Positions 20,289 to 34,968 of a stretch of DNA of 64,000 nt are shown piece by piece. The first letter of the stretch is position 1; each line of letters starts with the position of its first letter. The stretch is from Halococcoides cellulosivorans. GTDB lineage: Archaea; Halobacteriota; Halobacteria; Halobacteriales; Haloarculaceae. The stretch is taken from the NCBI RefSeq assembly GCF_003058365.1, contig NZ_CP028858.1, forward strand, positions 248,001 through 312,000, read 5' to 3'. The notes beneath the pieces are model-generated. The model ran no database searches, had not been told where the DNA came from, and saw nothing but the letters and a program-made list of their open reading frames with translations. The position numbers were made by a program, and so were the translations under genes.

Positions 20289-20885
20289 TCAGTCGTGATT
20301 CAGCGTCGTCGTCCCCCGATCGAGTGCGGCCGCACCCGTCCGGGCGAGTTCGTGGATGTCGAACTGATCGAAGGCCTCGATCGCGGCGTCGATCTTCTGC
20401 TCGCTGCCGGTGATCTCGACGGTGACGGCCTCGGGCGAGGCGTCGACGGCCTGGCCGTCGTACATCTCGGCCATCGCCTGCACCCGGTCGGGGTGGTCGT
20501 TGGCGACCTTGATGAGGGCGAGTTCCCGGCGCGTCGCCTCGATTTCGAGTTCGCGCACCGAGATGACCGGCACGAGCTTGCGAAGCTGCTTTTTCGCCTG
20601 CACGACGCCGGGTTCGGGCTCTTCGATCACGATCGTCATCCGCGCGACGTCCGGATCTGTCGTCGCCCCGACGGTCAGACTTTCGATGTTGAACTGCCGT
20701 CGGCTGAACAGTCCGGAAATCTCCGCGAGGACGCCCGGTTCGTGTTCGACCAGCGTCGAGAGCACGGCGTGGCGGGGTTCGTGGGTCACCTCGACTTCGG
20801 GGTCGACCCGGATGCCCTGGCTGTTGCGCCGGCCCTGCGGGCGCATTCGATCCTCGGGCGCGGGCCCTGGCAGTCCACCCGGCAT
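20289..20885 (-). CDS. ilvN: Acetolactate synthase small (regulatory) subunit
   Basis: 198 residues with an N-terminal ACT domain (HAVLSTLVEHEPGVLAEISG, FNIESLTVG) and the C-terminal ALS_ss domain. It binds valine and mediates feedback inhibition of IlvB. The ATG at 20885 overlaps the ilvB stop by one base (TAATG), indicating coupling. About 35 residues precede the ACT domain. Confidence 0.94.
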   Translation of the reverse strand: MPGGLPGPAPEDRMRPQGRRNSQGIRVDPEVEVTHEPRHAVLSTLVEHEPGVLAEISGLFSRRQFNIESLTVGATTDPDVARMTIVIEEPEPGVVQAKKQLRKLVPVISVRELEIEATRRELALIKVANDHPDRVQAMAEMYDGQAVDASPEAVTVEITGSEQKIDAAIEAFDQFDIHELARTGAAALDRGTTTLNHD

Positions 20886-22714
20886 TACAGCCCCTCCAGT
20901 TGGGCCTCGGTCAGCGCGAACAGGCCGTTGTCGCCCCCGCTGGGGACCATCGGGTAGACGTCCTCGCCGGGGTCGATGATCGCGTCGATGACCGCCGGGC
21001 CGTCGTAGGCGCGTGCGGCCTCGATGGTCTCGTCGACGTCGCTCTCGTCTTCCAGCCGGAAGCCCCGTGCGCCGAACGCCTCGGCGAGTTTGTCGAACTC
21101 GGGGACCCACGGATATTCGGAGGCCATCCGGCGGCCCTCGTAAAAGCCGTCCTGCCACTGGCGAACCATCCCGACGGCCTCGTTGTTCAGCACGACGTAC
21201 GTGATATCGAGGTTCTCCCGGACGGCGACCGACAGCTCGTGGACGGTCATCAAAAAGGAGCCGTCGCCGTCGAAGGTGACGACCTCGCGGTCGGGCGCGG
21301 CGACTTTCGCGCCGATCGCGGAGGGGACGCCGTAGCCCATCGTCCCCAGGCCGTTCGAGGACACCCACGTCCGGGGCGACTCGAACGTCCAGTACTGACA
21401 GCCCCACATCTGGTGTTGGCCGACGCCGGTCGTGACGATCGCGTCGTCGTCGGCGATCGCGTCGAACCGCTCGACGACGTACTGGGGTTTGAGCGGTTCG
21501 TCGTCGGGGGTCTCGTAGTCCAGGGGGTACTCCTCGGTCCAGCCCCGACAGGTCGCCCGCCAGTCGTCGGCGTCGGGCGGCCCGTCGAGCGCGGCGTCGA
21601 GTTGGTCGATGACTGCCCCGGCGTCACCGACCAGCGGGTAGTCGGCCTCGATGATCTTCGAGATCTCCGCGGGATCGATGTCGACGTGCGCGATCGCGGC
21701 GTCGGGCGCGAACGTCTCGACGCCGCCGGTCAGGCGGTCGTCGAACCGCGTGCCGATCCCCAGGAGGTAGTCGGTGTTCGTGATCGCCAGATTCGCCGCG
21801 CCCGTGCCGTGCATCCCGGCCATGCCCAGCGCCAGATTGTCGGTCTCGGGGAACGATCCCAGCCCGGGCATCGTCGTGATGACGGGGATCTCGTACTGCC
21901 GGGCGAACGATCGGAGCGCGTCGCTGGCGTCGCTTTTGATGACGCCGCCGCCCGCGAGGATGACCGGGCGTTCGGCCTCACCGAGCGCGTCGGCGGCCGC
22001 CGCGACGGTCGACTCGTCGGCCGTGAGTTGGGTCTCGTAGGTCTCGGGTGTCCCACCCTCGACGATGGCGTCCGCGACGTCGGCTTGCGTGACGTCTTTG
22101 GGCAGGTCGACCAGCGTGGGCCCCTGGCGGTGGGCGTCGGCCAGGTCGAACGCCTCGCCGACGGTCGACCCGATCGTCGCCGGGTCGTCCGCGAAGTAGT
22201 TGGATTTGGTGATCGGCTGGGTGATGCCGACGGTGTCGACCTCCTGGAAGGCGTCGTTGCCGACGAAGTCGGTCGCGACCTGGCCCGTCAGCGCGATCAG
22301 CGGATCCGAATCCATCGACGCGTCTGCGATGCCGGTGATGAGATTCGTCGCGCCAGGGCCCGAGGTCGCAAACGCCACGCCCGGATCGCCGGAGACGATG
22401 CCGTACGCGTCGGCGGCGTGGGCCGCGCCCTGCTCGTGGGCCATCGTCACGTGGGTGATCGTCGAGTCGTACAGCTTGTCGTAGACGGGCATGATCGCGC
22501 CGCCCTGGACGCCAAAGGCCGTCTCGACGCCCGACTGTTCGAGGGCGGCGACGACGGCTTCCGCGCCAGTCGTGGGATCGTCGAAGCCGGCGTCGGTGGG
22601 TTCGGCCGCCGACCCGCCGTCGGTCGTCGTCTGCTCCCCTGTCGTGTCGTCTGGTGTCGGTTCCTGTTCGCTCATCGGTGATTCGTCGTCTGTGTGGAGT
22701 GCTCGCTCGCTCAT
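20885..22714 (-). CDS. ilvB: Acetolactate synthase large (catalytic) subunit
   Basis: A 609-residue ThDP enzyme. It has the catalytic Glu in MAHEQGAAHAADAYG, an FAD/central domain and the ThDP motif beginning GDGSFLMTVHEL and ending VVLNN. It condenses pyruvate to acetolactate (valine, leucine) or with 2-oxobutyrate (isoleucine). Residues 1-50 are an acidic, low-complexity extension. A second in-frame ATG lies at codon 14. The ATG has no Shine-Dalgarno sequence, and a long leader with a valine-rich short ORF and hairpin precedes it, so expression may be controlled by that leader. Confidence 0.96.
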   Translation of the reverse strand: MSERALHTDDESPMSEQEPTPDDTTGEQTTTDGGSAAEPTDAGFDDPTTGAEAVVAALEQSGVETAFGVQGGAIMPVYDKLYDSTITHVTMAHEQGAAHAADAYGIVSGDPGVAFATSGPGATNLITGIADASMDSDPLIALTGQVATDFVGNDAFQEVDTVGITQPITKSNYFADDPATIGSTVGEAFDLADAHRQGPTLVDLPKDVTQADVADAIVEGGTPETYETQLTADESTVAAAADALGEAERPVILAGGGVIKSDASDALRSFARQYEIPVITTMPGLGSFPETDNLALGMAGMHGTGAANLAITNTDYLLGIGTRFDDRLTGGVETFAPDAAIAHVDIDPAEISKIIEADYPLVGDAGAVIDQLDAALDGPPDADDWRATCRGWTEEYPLDYETPDDEPLKPQYVVERFDAIADDDAIVTTGVGQHQMWGCQYWTFESPRTWVSSNGLGTMGYGVPSAIGAKVAAPDREVVTFDGDGSFLMTVHELSVAVRENLDITYVVLNNEAVGMVRQWQDGFYEGRRMASEYPWVPEFDKLAEAFGARGFRLEDESDVDETIEAARAYDGPAVIDAIIDPGEDVYPMVPSGGDNGLFALTEAQLEGL

Positions 22715-22780: not shown

Positions 22781-22808
22781 GTGAAGAGAGGTGGGGCTAG
22801 AGCGCCCC
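22781..22808 (-). promoter_or_regulatory. Attenuator-like hairpin plus pyrimidine tract in the ilvB leader
   Basis: In the RNA sense a 5-bp G/C stem GGGGC (22808-22804) / GCCCC (22797-22793) has a 6-nt loop. It is followed by the pyrimidine tract ACCTCTCTTCAC (22792-22781). The TAG of the leader ORF overlaps the loop and 3' arm. An alternative pairing of the upstream CGCCC (in the leader ORF) with the GGGGCG arm would exclude it. The same sequence, with few changes, precedes valS. The regulatory role is inferred. Confidence 0.6.
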
Positions 22809-22856
22809 TACGAGAACGAGGGCGAGCGAACGCGCCGGGCCACTCGATCGGGCCAT
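22797..22856 (-). CDS. Putative ilvB leader peptide (19 aa, Leu/Val-rich)
   Basis: A short ORF encoding MARSSGPARSLALVLVGAL then TAG. Its last nine codons include CTC-GCC-CTC-GTT-CTC-GTA, i.e. three Leu and two Val, with a further Leu just before the stop. The ATG lies about 30 nt after a good TATA box, so the ORF would be at or very near the RNA 5' end and translated in leaderless fashion. The stop codon is inside the GGGGC/GCCCC hairpin. This matches the logic of amino-acid attenuation leaders for a valine/leucine biosynthetic gene. No homology is known to me; expression is inferred. Confidence 0.6.
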   Translation of the reverse strand: MARSSGPARSLALVLVGAL

Positions 22857-22893
22857 CGTATACTGACCGAACGGACGATTCGTAATAAATTTT
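22857..22893 (-). promoter_or_regulatory. Promoter of the ilvB operon
   Basis: On the minus strand a TATA box AAATTTATTA (22884-22893) preceded by a purine-rich BRE-like CGGAA would start transcription at about 22857-22862, just before the leader-peptide ATG. This gives ilvB a leader of about 145 nt, unusual in an organism where most promoters here are leaderless. Confidence 0.55.
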
Positions 22894-22994: not shown

Positions 22995-24216
22995 TCACGC
23001 TGTGACCTCTTCGGTGGCCTGAGCGACGCCGACGTCGTCGGCAAATCGTTCGAGAACCTCCATCGTGACCTCGCGGTCCTGGGCGCCGTAGTCTTTGACC
23101 CGCCGGGTGACCTGCTCGACGTCACGCTCGCTGGGCTCGTAGCCCGCGTCTTTCAGGCGCTCGCGAACGGAGTGTTGGCCCGTGTGTTTGCCGAGGACGA
23201 GTTCGCGTTCGGCCCCCACCATCTCGGGGGTCATCACGCCGGGTTCGAACGTGTCGGTGTTCTCGATGACGCCCGCGGCGTGGATGCCGCTCTCGTGTGA
23301 GAACGCGTTCGAGCCGACGACGGGCTTGTTGCCCGGGACGTCGATCGAACTCTTCGATTCGATCAGCTGCGAGAGCTCCGTAATCGACGTGGTCTCGATC
23401 CCCGTGTCCACGTCGTAGAGGCTCTCTAAGGCCATGACGAGCTCTTCGTAGGCGGCGTTGCCCGCCCGCTCACCGATGCCGTTGACGCTGACCTGGGCCT
23501 GGGCCGCGCCGCCTTCCATGCCCGCGAGCGCGTTCGCCGTCGCCAGCCCGAAGTCGTCGTGGGTGTGGACGTCCACGCGGGCGTCCGTGTGCGCGGTGAC
23601 GGTCTCGATCAACTCGCGGAATCGACCGGGCGTCGCGACGCCGGTCGTGTCGGGGACGTTGATCCAGTCCGCGCCCGCCTCCGTGACGGCCTCCACGACT
23701 TCGACGAGAAACTCCTCGTCGGTCCGGGTGGCGTCCATCGGCGAGAACATACACTCGACGCCCGCGTCTGTCACGCGCTCGACGGACTCGACCGCGCGTG
23801 CTTTGGCCTCCTCGCGGGAAGCGTGCATCGAGTCCTGCAACTGGATGTCGCTGGTCGAGACGAACACGTGCACCAGGTCGACACCCGAGTCGAGTGCGGC
23901 CTCGACGTCGGCCTCGACGACGCGAGCCAGTCCACAGACCGTCGTCGACGTGGCGGCCTGGATGTCGCGGACGGCCTCGAACTCCGCCTCGCTGTTTACG
24001 GGGAACCCCGCCTCGATGACGTGGGTGCCCATCTCGTCGAGCAGCGTGGCTATCTCCCGTTTGTCCTCGTAGGAAAACGAGGTGCCGGGTGACTGTTCAC
24101 CGTCGCGCAACGTGGTGTCGAAAATTCGTGCCTCGGTAATTTCCGAGGTGCTATCCAGAGTGCCCTGGAAGAACTCGACCCGCCGGGGAATCCGACGAAT
24201 CCTCCTGTCGTGTCAT
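22995..24216 (-). CDS. leuA: LeuA-family 2-isopropylmalate / (R)-citramalate synthase, apparent 5' frameshift
   Basis: An HMGL-like acyltransferase domain with DTTLRDGEQSPGTSFSYE, VHTHDDFGLATANALAG (metal His pair) and GNAAYEEL. It condenses acetyl-CoA with 2-oxoisovalerate or pyruvate; the short C-terminus leaves the choice open. The continuous frame (22995 to about 24204) carries the expected N-terminus RVEFFQGTLDSTSEI but no ATG, GTG or TTG before it; the first such codon (TTG, 24110) would delete this segment. The only good start, ATG at 24216, has a TATA box 30 nt upstream but is one nucleotide out of frame (37 nt to the GTC codon). Either an indel in the CCCC/GGG runs, a real mutation, or unusual initiation explains this. 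Confidence 0.8.
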
Positions 24217-32045: not shown

Positions 32046-34718
32046 TCACCCAACGATCACGACGGCGTCCTCGCAGTCGATCATCTCCCCGTCGCCCGAG
32101 TAGGTCTGTTCGCGCTGGATCTCGAACATCGCGTCGTCGAGCGTGACGCCCGCGAGTTCGAGGCCCTCGGCCGTCACCTCGAACTCGCCGTCTGCGATGG
32201 CGTGCTCGATCTCCCCGACCTGCTCGCCGTACTCGGGGCCGACGGTCGCGTAGTCCAGATCGACGTCTGCGATCGATTCGGTGATCTCGGGCGCCGATTC
32301 GAGCACGTCGAACGTGTCGACGTGCATCGCGCCCGCGATGGCGTCACCGAAGGCCGCGAGGTCGTCCTCGCTGTACACGGTGACGCGGTCGAGCGGTTCG
32401 TTCAGCGCGAGGCCCTGGTCGGTCTTGTACCCCCGGAGCGCGCCGATGACGCCCATCGCGGTCTCGCCCGCCGCGAGGTCGGCGTCGAAGCCCTCTGGGG
32501 TGGGCCAGTCGGCGGTGTGGATCGAGTCTGTGTCGCCCGCGTCGCCGTCTGCATACAGGTAGTGCCACAACTCCTCGGTGACGTGGGGGACGAGCGGCGC
32601 GAACAGTTTCAGGAAGGTGCGGTGGGCGTGATCGAGCGTGTACGCGGCGGACGCATCGTCGCGCTGCTTGGCGATTTCGAGGTAGTCGTCACAGAACGTC
32701 GACCAGAAGAAGGTGCGCAACTCGTCGCGCGCCTTCGAGAATTCGTAGTCGTCGAGCTTCGCGGTGACGCTCGCGACGGTCCGATCGAGCCCGGCGAGCA
32801 GCCAGCGATCGATCGCGCGCAACTCGTCGGGCTTCGCGGGCCGCTCGGCGGGGGTCTGTTGATCGACCAGTCGCGAGGCGTTCCAGAGCTTCTGGAGGAG
32901 GCGCTCGCCCGCTTCGAGGTCGTTTTCCTTGAACGGGAAGTCGTCACCGATCGACGTGCCCGCGGCCCAGTACCGCGCGGCGTCGACGGGGAACCGCTCC
33001 AGGACTTCGTCGGGGTGGACGACGTTGCCCTTGGATTTCGACATCGCCTCGCGGTGCTCGTCCAGCACCATCCCGTTGACCATCACCGTCTCGAAAGGCA
33101 CCGCACCGGTGTGTTCGTAGCATTTGACGATTGTGTGGAATAACCAGAACGAAATGATGTCGTGGCCCTGCGGGCGGAGCGTCGAGGGGTAGAGTTCCGG
33201 GTTCTCGAAGGTGAACTCCTCGGCGTCGCTATCCCAGTCCCACCCGGCGTTGATCAGCGGCGTCAGCGACGACGTCGCCCACGTGTCGAAGACGTCCTCT
33301 TCGGCCTCGAAGTCGTCGTGCCCACACTCGGGACAGGCCTCGACCGGCGGGTCGTCGGCGATGGGATCGACCGGAAGGGCCGCCTTCTCCGCAAAGATCG
33401 GTTCGCCACACGACCCACAGTACCAGACGGGGAACGGAATGCCCGAGTCGCGCTGCCGGGAGATACACCAGTCCCATTCGAGCCCCTCGATCCAGTGCTG
33501 GTACCGGCTGATCATCTTCTCGGGGAACCAGTCCATCTCGCGGGCGGCGTCGAGGTACTCGTCTTTGCGGTCGAGCAACTCGACGTACCACTGCTCGGTG
33601 ACGAGATACTCGACTTCGTGCTCGCAGCGCTCGTGAACCTGGACCGAGTGGTCGTGGTCGCGCTGTTCGAGGAGGTGGCCCGCCGCGTCGAGGTCGTCGA
33701 GGATCGCGTCGCGGGCCTGTTCGGTGCTCAAGCCTTCGTACTCGCCCGCGCGATCGGTCATCGTCCCGGACTCGTCGATGGCGATGCGCAGCGGGAGGTC
33801 GTGGGCCTGGTACCACTCGATGTCGGTCTGATCCCCGAACGTACAGCACATCACGATCCCGCTGCCGGTCTCCTGGTCCACGCGATCGTCTTCGATGATC
33901 GGCACCTCCTGGCCAAAGAGTGGGACTTCGGCGGTGCCGCCGACGAGGTGGGCATTCGCGTCGTCCTCGGGGTGGACGAAAATCGAGACACACGCGGGCA
34001 GGAGTTCGGGCCGTGTCGTCGAGATGGTCAGCGTTTCGTTCTCGACCGGCCCCGACCCGTCCGCCACCAGCGGGAAGGCGATGTCGTTGAACTGCGTCGA
34101 TTTGTCGATGTCCTCCTGTTCGACCTGGCTGATCGCGGTCTCACAGTCCGGACACCAGATCGTCGGTGCGCGCTGGCGGTACTCCCGACCCTGTTCGTAC
34201 AGATCGAGAAAGGAGAGCTGTGAGATGCGCTGGACTCGCGGCTCGATCGTCTGGTAGGTGTTCGACCAGTCCACGGAGATCGCCAGCGACTGGACGTCCT
34301 CGGTGAACGACTCCTCGTATTCGGCACAGACGTCGCGGCATTTCGCCTGGAACGCCTGGCGCTCGAAGTCGCCGTGACGCACCCCGAGTTCGCGCTCGGT
34401 GAGTCGCTCGGAGGCGATGCCGTTGTCGTCGAAGCCGAAGGGGAAGTAGACCGCGTCCTCGGACATCCGCCGATAGCGTGCGACGAAGTCCTGGAGGGTG
34501 AACTGATACAGGTGGCCCATGTGGAGGTCGCCCGAGACGGTGGGCGGCGGCGTGTCGATCGCGAAGACGGTGTCCGCGTCGACGGCCGCGTCGCTCGGCG
34601 CGTCGTAGGCGTAGGTGTCCGCCTCGACCCACCGCGATTGCCAGTCGGGTTCGACCTGGCGGGGATCGTAGTCGTCGGGCAGTGCGTCGGTCGTCGATGG
34701 CGTGTCGTCGTGGCTCAT
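32046..34718 (-). CDS. valS: Valyl-tRNA synthetase
   Basis: An 890-residue class I synthetase. It has the HIGH-type motif GDLHMGH, the Val/Ile-specific CP1 editing domain (ISTTRPELLPACV), zinc-finger-like CPDC and CGSCGEP/CPECGHD pairs, KMSKS as AMSKSKGN and an anticodon-binding C-terminus. Pattern and length fit archaeal ValS. It charges tRNA-Val. There is no Shine-Dalgarno before ATG 34718. The gene has a leader that encodes a short peptide ending in two valine codons, which may tune expression to tRNA-Val charging. Confidence 0.97.
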   Translation of the reverse strand: MSHDDTPSTTDALPDDYDPRQVEPDWQSRWVEADTYAYDAPSDAAVDADTVFAIDTPPPTVSGDLHMGHLYQFTLQDFVARYRRMSEDAVYFPFGFDDNGIASERLTERELGVRHGDFERQAFQAKCRDVCAEYEESFTEDVQSLAISVDWSNTYQTIEPRVQRISQLSFLDLYEQGREYRQRAPTIWCPDCETAISQVEQEDIDKSTQFNDIAFPLVADGSGPVENETLTISTTRPELLPACVSIFVHPEDDANAHLVGGTAEVPLFGQEVPIIEDDRVDQETGSGIVMCCTFGDQTDIEWYQAHDLPLRIAIDESGTMTDRAGEYEGLSTEQARDAILDDLDAAGHLLEQRDHDHSVQVHERCEHEVEYLVTEQWYVELLDRKDEYLDAAREMDWFPEKMISRYQHWIEGLEWDWCISRQRDSGIPFPVWYCGSCGEPIFAEKAALPVDPIADDPPVEACPECGHDDFEAEEDVFDTWATSSLTPLINAGWDWDSDAEEFTFENPELYPSTLRPQGHDIISFWLFHTIVKCYEHTGAVPFETVMVNGMVLDEHREAMSKSKGNVVHPDEVLERFPVDAARYWAAGTSIGDDFPFKENDLEAGERLLQKLWNASRLVDQQTPAERPAKPDELRAIDRWLLAGLDRTVASVTAKLDDYEFSKARDELRTFFWSTFCDDYLEIAKQRDDASAAYTLDHAHRTFLKLFAPLVPHVTEELWHYLYADGDAGDTDSIHTADWPTPEGFDADLAAGETAMGVIGALRGYKTDQGLALNEPLDRVTVYSEDDLAAFGDAIAGAMHVDTFDVLESAPEITESIADVDLDYATVGPEYGEQVGEIEHAIADGEFEVTAEGLELAGVTLDDAMFEIQREQTYSGDGEMIDCEDAVVIVG

Positions 34719-34766: not shown

Positions 34767-34794
34767 GTGAGAAAGAGGGGGCTCAGTGGGCCCC
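34767..34794 (-). promoter_or_regulatory. Attenuator-like hairpin plus pyrimidine tract in the valS leader
   Basis: In RNA sense a 5-bp stem GGGGC (34794-34790) / GCCCC (34782-34778) has a 7-nt loop holding the leader-peptide stop (TGA). The pyrimidine tract CTCTTTCTCAC follows. Upstream CCC, just before the two GTA codons, could instead pair with the GGG arm, with GTAGTA as the loop. Sequence and spacing match the ilvB leader. Role inferred. Confidence 0.6.
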
Positions 34795-34845
34795 TACTAC
34801 GGGTGGCCGACCGGCGGGTTCGATCGGTGCCGCGATCCACCCCAT
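34783..34845 (-). CDS. Putative valS leader peptide (20 aa, ends Val-Val-Gly-Ala-His)
   Basis: A short ORF of 20 codons: ATG GGG TGG ... CCC GTA GTA GGG GCC CAC TGA. Two consecutive GTA valine codons, a minority codon in this G/C-rich genome, directly precede the hairpin, and the stop lies in its loop. The ATG is about 23 nt after a TATA box, so it would be read as a leaderless message. The C-terminal V-G-A-x-stop matches the ilvB leader peptide although the rest differs, which suggests selection on the 3' half only. Expression is inferred. Confidence 0.6.
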   Translation of the reverse strand: MGWIAAPIEPAGRPPVVGAH

Positions 34846-34872
34846 GGACGGCCCAGTCCGTCGCATAATAGC
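34846..34872 (-). promoter_or_regulatory. Promoter of valS
   Basis: The minus-strand TATA element CTATTATGC (34864-34872) would direct transcription from about 34840-34848, at the leader-peptide ATG. This makes a leader of roughly 125 nt before valS. Confidence 0.5.
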
Positions 34873-34968
34873 GATTGAGCGCGCGCCCGGATTGAGTGTT
34901 TCGAGTCGGGTCTCGCCCACGCTTGCCGCGACCCGAACGGCCTGGTCGCCGGCGGCCCCCTATCCACC

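Follow-up and report, generated by a model that had tools for sequence, protein, structure and literature searches.

The valine--tRNA ligase gene valS and the acetolactate synthase gene ilvB of Halococcoides cellulosivorans are each preceded by a short open reading frame (ORF) that runs into a G+C-rich hairpin. The question raised by this locus is whether these ORFs are leader peptides through which the charging of a valine tRNA is read. The window, by which we mean the whole stretch of DNA analysed, comprises 64,000 nt (GCF_003058365.1, NZ_CP028858.1, positions 248,001-312,000 of the forward strand). An earlier sequence-only reading had claimed that valS and ilvB have the same leader architecture, with tandem GTA codons at valS, and this claim held when both ORFs were read directly.

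Two leaders in the window

The features at valS are as follows.

32046-34718, minus strand: valS, valine--tRNA ligase (NCBIfam NF009687.0 (ValS), 1058 bits, cut-off 738)
34767-34777, minus strand: G-poor pyrimidine/T tract CTCTTTCTCAC 3ʹ of the valS hairpin, proposed termination region
34778-34794, minus strand: valS leader hairpin GGGGC-CCACTGA-GCCCC with the TGA of the leader in its loop and compensatory changes in relatives (arms GGGGC 34794-34790 and GCCCC 34782-34778, loop CCACTGA)
34795-34800, minus strand: tandem GTA GTA valine codons, the proposed sensor, abutting GGGGC-N7-GCCCC
34783-34866, minus strand: valS leader ORF of 27 codons, MRRTGPSMGWIAAPIEPAGRPPVVGAH and stop, read directly and predicted leaderless (ATG 34866-34864, stop TGA 34785-34783)
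34889-34904, minus strand: promoter-like GAAACACTCAATCC region about 30 nt upstream of the leader ATG, with the same block in relatives

The start of the valS leader was placed at 34866 and not at the alternative in-frame ATG at 34845, because the promoter-like CGAAACACTCAATCC common to the relatives points there; the promoter-like block precedes the leader ATG also in G001, G020, G035 and G048. The TATA box of the valS leader is weak, and the folding specific to the window was modest for its hairpin (z about -0.7).

The features at ilvB, downstream of which lie ilvN, ilvC, leuC and leuD, are listed below.

20885-22714, minus strand: ilvB, acetolactate synthase large subunit (TIGR00118 (IlvB), 679 bits, cut-off 538)
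22781-22792, minus strand: pyrimidine/T tract ACCTCTCTTCAC 3ʹ of the ilvB hairpin
22793-22808, minus strand: ilvB hairpin GGGGC-GCTCTA-GCCCC with the TAG stop at the loop/3ʹ arm (arms GGGGC 22808-22804 and GCCCC 22797-22793, loop GCTCTA; z = -3.08 for the 33-nt hairpin stretch)
22809-22811, minus strand: GTA valine codon, the proposed sensor
22797-22856, minus strand: ilvB leader ORF, MARSSGPARSLALVLVGAL and stop, predicted leaderless (ATG 22856-22854, stop TAG 22799-22797)
22883-22889, minus strand: TATA box TTTATTA, whose start lies 33 nt from the leader ATG

The two leaders have a common end, GTA GGG GCN NNN stop, laid over GGGGC-N(6-7)-GCCCC and followed by a pyrimidine tract. The ilvB leader of the window reads LVLV and is an exception to the usual Ile-Val.

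Distribution of the leader beyond one genome

The sequence-only reading had further argued that two such loci make chance unlikely. As a count in one genome this proves nothing, and the claim held on comparative evidence. The bare hairpin pattern had 4 matches in the window versus 0.98 expected; it is not rare in a G+C-rich window of 64 kb and was dropped as evidence, and comparison of the frame and covariation were used instead. The pattern GTAGGGGCN(4-8)GCCCC matched only at ilvB and valS in the entire genome of the window, but since the reversed control pattern also gave 2 matches there, the proof has to be comparative and cannot rest on a count in one genome. In 57 genomes of the family, the pattern had 106 matches, of which 63 were located on the same strand upstream of ilvB (43) or valS (20), 6 on the opposite strand at the same palindromic ilvB sites, and 37 elsewhere, including 2 on fragmentary genomes in which ilvB was not sought. 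Loops of 4 or 5 nt accounted for 25/37 of the matches elsewhere and for 0/63 of those at ilvB and valS. A strict form, ATTGTAGGGGCN(0-4)TAGCCCC, which contains an Ile codon and TAG, was present in 15/197 Halobacteriota genomes, all haloarchaeal and in all 15 upstream of ilvB, with no match for the reversed control in the 197 genomes. Many copies at unrelated genes would have counted against the earlier reading, and this check did not refute it, as the strict form occurs upstream of ilvB only.

A leader detector, defined by GTA, an adjacent hairpin, an in-frame ATG and a near stop, was positive for 111/119 haloarchaeal ilvB upstream regions, for 2/4000 random haloarchaeal stretches of 500 nt and for 0/28 bacterial ilvB upstream regions. 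It should be kept in mind that GTA is built into the detector behind these counts; its failures were inspected by eye, and none of them had GTC, GTG or GTT at the sensor position.

The ilvB leaders came from three sets: genomes of the family, other families of the class and 52 named haloarchaeal records, among them Haloferax massiliensis, Halorubrum, Natrinema, Halobacterium, Haladaptatus and Halarchaeum. Sequence comparison shows that the leader is widespread: GTA and the hairpin are present in 114/119 haloarchaeal ilvB upstream regions, that of Haloferax (L392) included. The remaining five comprise a variant stem with GTA (G065), two Ile-Ile leaders without GTA (L397 and the second ilvB copy of G008), a truncated region (L356) and one whose upstream was not covered (L388). 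The two Ile-Ile leaders keep the hairpin (ATT ATT GGG GTT... and ATT ATT GGG GCT...) with GTA lost, and may be natural Ile-only variants. For valS of the window's type, the leader was found in 36/49 upstream regions, and additionally with a shifted stem in G094; among these 49 it was missing from family f4 (8/8), three genomes of one genus and G074. Haloferax valS is likewise without it. Absence of the leader in close relatives, the other outcome that might have refuted the earlier reading, was not observed as such: relatives both near and far carry the leader, though not at valS of f4.

Reading frame, control codons and hairpin

To decide on the reading frame, we examined all three frames for an ATG from which GTA can be reached without interruption. 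In the GTA frame this was the case for 110/114 related ilvB leaders, 35/36 related valS leaders and 28/28 leaders of a second valS type described below, versus only 2-4 in each of the other two frames; for ilvB and the window's valS type taken together, the ATG-open frame was the GTA frame in 145/150 leaders. Being related by descent, these leaders do not count as independent trials, but they come from nine families in our sample. The stop codon followed GTA by 9 or 12 nt in 107/110 ilvB and 26/35 valS leaders, and lay within the hairpin in 107/110 ilvB leaders. The peptides differ in length by whole codons (mainly 16-33 codons for valS and 18-33 for ilvB) and vary in their 5ʹ sequence, and the distance from TATA box to ATG is mostly 29-33 nt (110 ilvB leaders), as in leaderless haloarchaeal genes. 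The leader ORF, its frame and the position of its stop are thus shown by sequence comparison; that the ORFs are translated is strongly inferred from it, in the absence of ribosome profiling.

If the ORFs are translated, they could be functional small proteins that merely happen to be located before these genes. In favour of this explanation, translation is predicted, and ORFs in Haloferax 5ʹ-UTRs have been listed as small proteins (PMC4983044). However, both sequence and length are free to change except in the final codons, which themselves track the RNA stem and change from VGA to VGP when the stem is flipped. The leader peptide is not known to have a trans-acting phenotype, and we regard this explanation as practically ruled out.

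The pre-hairpin codon was GTA wherever a Val sensor was seen. In the relative G048 (2.0 of 2.63 Mb), GTA makes up 4.8% of Val codons, and the part covered contains one gene for tRNA-Val(UAC). Elsewhere in these valS and ilvB peptides, valine is mostly encoded by GTC. The codon before GTA is Ile in 106/110 ilvB leaders and in 0/35 valS leaders.

The leader is of another kind in a second valS lineage, which shares about 40% identity with the type of the window: an ATG mini-ORF, found in 28/31 upstream regions from five families, usually of 9-13 codons, starting about 30 nt after a TATA box. Its peptides end in Val-Val-Arg or Val-Val-Gly (...VVR(x) and stop), always with GTA GTA; examples are MALMSSVVR, MGLMSSVVR, MYRSPVVRV and MSATQSVVGGL, each followed by a stop. 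The GGGGC hairpin was not found in these 28 leaders, whereas a T-rich tract was present in 78% of 27. As GTA has no pairing partner there, the codon is retained for its own sake; and since the hairpin is absent, hairpin termination cannot be the whole mechanism at valS of the second type, where some involvement of a factor is favoured as a possibility. Two genomes, G007 and G027, have both valS types, and only the window-like type has a leader there.

The control codons differ by gene: Ile-Val in ilvB, Val-Val, Arg-Val or Phe-Val in valS, Phe in pheS and Trp in trpS. At pheS, a leader ending GFGFFFA or similar was found in 14/20 genomes (upstream regions L202-L219), and at trpS a W-R-W leader in at least 10/20 genomes; the window's own genome has neither a pheS nor a trpS leader. 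No such leader was found at ileS (ten genomes) or leuS (seven genomes). Two points of the sequence-only reading can be compared with these results. Its suggestion that the element is read through the minority GTA codon is supported, with GTA at every Val sensor, also in the second valS type without a hairpin. Of the analogous leaders it proposed to look for, those at ileS and leuS were not found and those at trpS exist in many genomes, as do leaders at pheS.

In the trpS upstream regions L224-L234, the W-R-W codons lie in the loop or the 5ʹ arm of a long stem (9-14 bp), the sequence of which differs between genera with pairing kept (GTCCGCTCCC/GGGAGCGGAC, TGTCCACTTCC/GGAAGTGGACA and GCTGTCCGCTGGCG/CGCCAGCGGACAGT). 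A second, mutually exclusive pairing in trpS leaders failed to hold in all genomes and was dropped. A codon-run score for further leaders in G048 (2.0 of 2.63 Mb) gave 110 candidates, with the known ilvB leader only 24th, and was abandoned as too weak.

Separate observations were made at leuA (ORF 22995-24110; start region 24216-24151 and 24176; minus strand), which seemingly has no start codon in its own frame. A TATA-positioned ATG opens an ORF in another frame (...RVLPGH/RVLRGH... and stop) over a near-invariant GGTCGAGTTCTTCCAGGGCAC in 40/41 haloarchaeal loci, and there is no in-frame ATG or GTG within 110 nt in 33/42 loci. This may indicate programmed +1 frameshifting by a prfB-like slip at CTT-C, perhaps linked to leucine, or, just as possibly, a leader ORF together with an unusual start. 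Conserved leader-like blocks also precede a second leuA copy (L438, L441, L439, L445, L461 and others): most genomes have GAGGATAGAGGAAGTCGCCnnACGGCGGCTGGCCGCGAAATTCTC, and f6/f7 carry a short ORF lying over TTATTCGGG-GTTCCT-CCCGAA.

Comparison of the leaders shows that the hairpin is conserved as a structure. Three/five stem pairs had two-sided changes, and 98.9% of cells were paired (35 distinct sequences). Stem covariation was 0.205, compared with 0.056 after shuffling (none of 500 shuffles reached it) and 0.008-0.072 on sliding the stem. The leaders had been chosen for having a stem, which favours the percentage of pairing but not stem flips. In the flipped stems (GGCCCC/GGGGCC) the peptide changes from VGA to VGP, with GTA and the stop in the loop unchanged. 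The hairpin was present in the predicted minimum-energy folds of 134/150 leaders. The tract that follows is likewise shown by comparison: G drops to 4% in the first 10 nt after the hairpin, and a T-rich motif within 30 nt of it was found in 72% of valS and 75% of ilvB leaders versus 0% and 14% of control windows. This tract is short and C-rich, without a long U run. Work on Haloferax found T stretches carrying a TC at intergenic termination sites, and a hairpin put to the test there caused 59% of transcripts to terminate in vivo (PMC7237163). An antiterminator was sought and none was evident, the complementarity of the hairpin arms to the flanks being below that of shuffled flanks.

The conserved block could alternatively be an RNA (or DNA) element that binds a protein or a small molecule, with the ORF incidental. 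This would agree with the strong conservation of GTAGGGG and CCCC at the nucleotide level and with the lack of conservation in the 5ʹ half of the ORF. Against it stand the frame and stop, kept in 145/150 leaders, the change of length in whole codons, the persistence of GTA GTA without a hairpin in second-type valS leaders, the Phe and Trp codons in pheS and trpS leaders, and the absence of any Rfam match in the window, so that we consider it very improbable.

Another alternative is a T-box-like element, in which uncharged tRNA-Val(UAC) would pair with GUA and control the hairpin without a ribosome. GUA does match the anticodon UAC exactly, and the tRNA-Val(UAC) gene is present in the relative G048. 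However, at gathering thresholds Rfam 15, T-box included, gave no match in the window; a T-box-sized structure would not fit into a leader beginning at its ATG; and the triplet is always in the frame of the leader, which a T-box would not need. This alternative can be almost entirely dismissed.

A proposed mechanism and its relation to known systems

We consider it likely, with a probability of roughly 0.72, that these haloarchaeal leaders act by ribosome-mediated, Val-tRNA-responsive attenuation through direct occlusion of one hairpin, without an antiterminator. Stalling, termination and the valine response with its direction are inferred, with no expression data. In the proposed sequence of events, the promoter would give a leaderless transcript starting at or beside the ATG of the short ORF, and a ribosome would translate up to the rare GTA codons set directly against the 5ʹ arm of the G+C-rich hairpin. 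With ample charged Val-tRNA(UAC), the ribosome would reach the stop and depart, the hairpin would form and most transcription would end in the tract. With charged Val-tRNA scarce, the ribosome would stall with GTA in the A site, its footprint covering the 5ʹ arm; the hairpin would be blocked and RNA polymerase would continue into valS or the ilvB operon. The footprint of a ribosome extends about 12-15 nt downstream. A ribosome with GTA in the A site would cover the 5ʹ arm and would therefore keep the hairpin open, so that the stalled ribosome itself would be the antiterminator. Because a ribosome at the stop would also cover the hairpin, its release before the escape of RNA polymerase is required.

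The putative sensor is Ile-Val in the typical ilvB leader and Val in valS, and the inferred response, expression when charged Val-tRNA is short, would be sensible for both genes. The earlier suggestion of a valine-tRNA-responsive element coordinating the two is thereby supported, with two reservations: the valine response is still an inference, and most ilvB leaders contain Ile-Val, not Val alone.

For the off state, intrinsic termination, FttA/aCPSF1-dependent termination and a translational block are each possible. A rival explanation replaces hairpin-driven intrinsic termination by termination of the FttA/aCPSF1 type or by masking of the start of the gene. In its favour, GTA GTA and a T-rich tract (the latter in 78% of 27) occur without a hairpin in the second valS type, and archaea are known to terminate transcription by an aCPSF1/FttA-dependent route acting on nascent RNA (PMC8116511). 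However, compensatory changes preserve the hairpin of ilvB and of valS of the window's type, and the stop lies in it, so that structure matters in most leaders. The spacing between hairpin and gene (at least 51 nt up to the homologous part) varies widely, which speaks against masking of the gene's own start. We regard this rival as unlikely.

A bolder version of attenuation by direct occlusion can be put forward, namely that class-wide, ribosome-read, leaderless leader peptides set valS, ilvB, pheS and trpS by the charging of single tRNAs, through one hairpin and a rare codon. Archaea would then have their first case of ribosome-mediated attenuation. In our judgement this version is fairly likely. 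We found no description of ribosome-mediated attenuation in Archaea in the open-access literature searched; subscription papers and preprints were outside the search and priority is not proven. Ribosome-mediated attenuation is a textbook mechanism of bacteria. In Archaea the RNA polymerase is different, leaderless mRNAs occur and termination is factor-dependent. If the proposal is true, a working leader-peptide sensor would mean that transcription-translation coupling is used for regulation in Archaea, and the rare GTA would provide a clean test of the theory that control codons are selected for the tRNAs that lose their charge first.

Some of these leaders have been seen before. Among the Haloferax volcanii uORFs in long 5ʹ-UTRs given by a study of start sites (PMC4983044, Table 2) there is one of 23 aa before the tryptophan--tRNA ligase gene HVO_A0127 and one of 26 aa before pheS HVO_2948. 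They are the leaders described here, but were listed as small proteins; neither "attenuat" nor "leader peptide" occurs in that paper, and ilvB and valS are not in its uORF list.

T-box riboswitches follow the same logic, with one tRNA governing both a synthetase and a biosynthetic operon; the leaders studied here have no T-box structure or Rfam match and have instead a conserved reading frame. As proposed, they would work like the bacterial ribosome-mediated attenuators (trp, ilvGMEDA, leu, pheST), in which a short ORF likewise has cognate control codons at a hairpin before biosynthetic or synthetase genes. In contrast to these, the haloarchaeal leaders are predicted to be leaderless, have one hairpin that abuts the control codons and contains the stop in its loop, and lack a long U run. 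The classical criterion of a mutually exclusive antiterminator and terminator is not met: with only one conserved hairpin and competing pairings depleted (arm-flank complementarity below shuffled), the ilvB and valS leaders are not classed as classical two-structure attenuators.

The closest likeness is to the candidate ilvB leaders of Actinobacteria (Seliverstov et al. 2005, PMC1262725), where short ORFs with Ile, Val and Leu codons overlap a candidate terminator hairpin, as the leader ORF overlaps the hairpin upstream of ilvB here. Those leaders differ in being bacterial, in having polyU runs and in carrying several control codons in a row instead of one or two rare GTA; homology by descent between the two groups is improbable. 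It counts against our model that mutating the control codons of the similar Streptomyces coelicolor ilvB leader was without effect on ilvB (cited in PMC1262725). With respect to occlusion, the proposal resembles leader control of the E. coli tna type, in which a stalled ribosome occludes the termination site. In both, the termination signal would be shielded directly by a ribosome that has stalled where the leader ends, but the stall proposed here is at hungry Val codons, whereas in the tna type it depends on a ligand and the nascent peptide at the stop codon.
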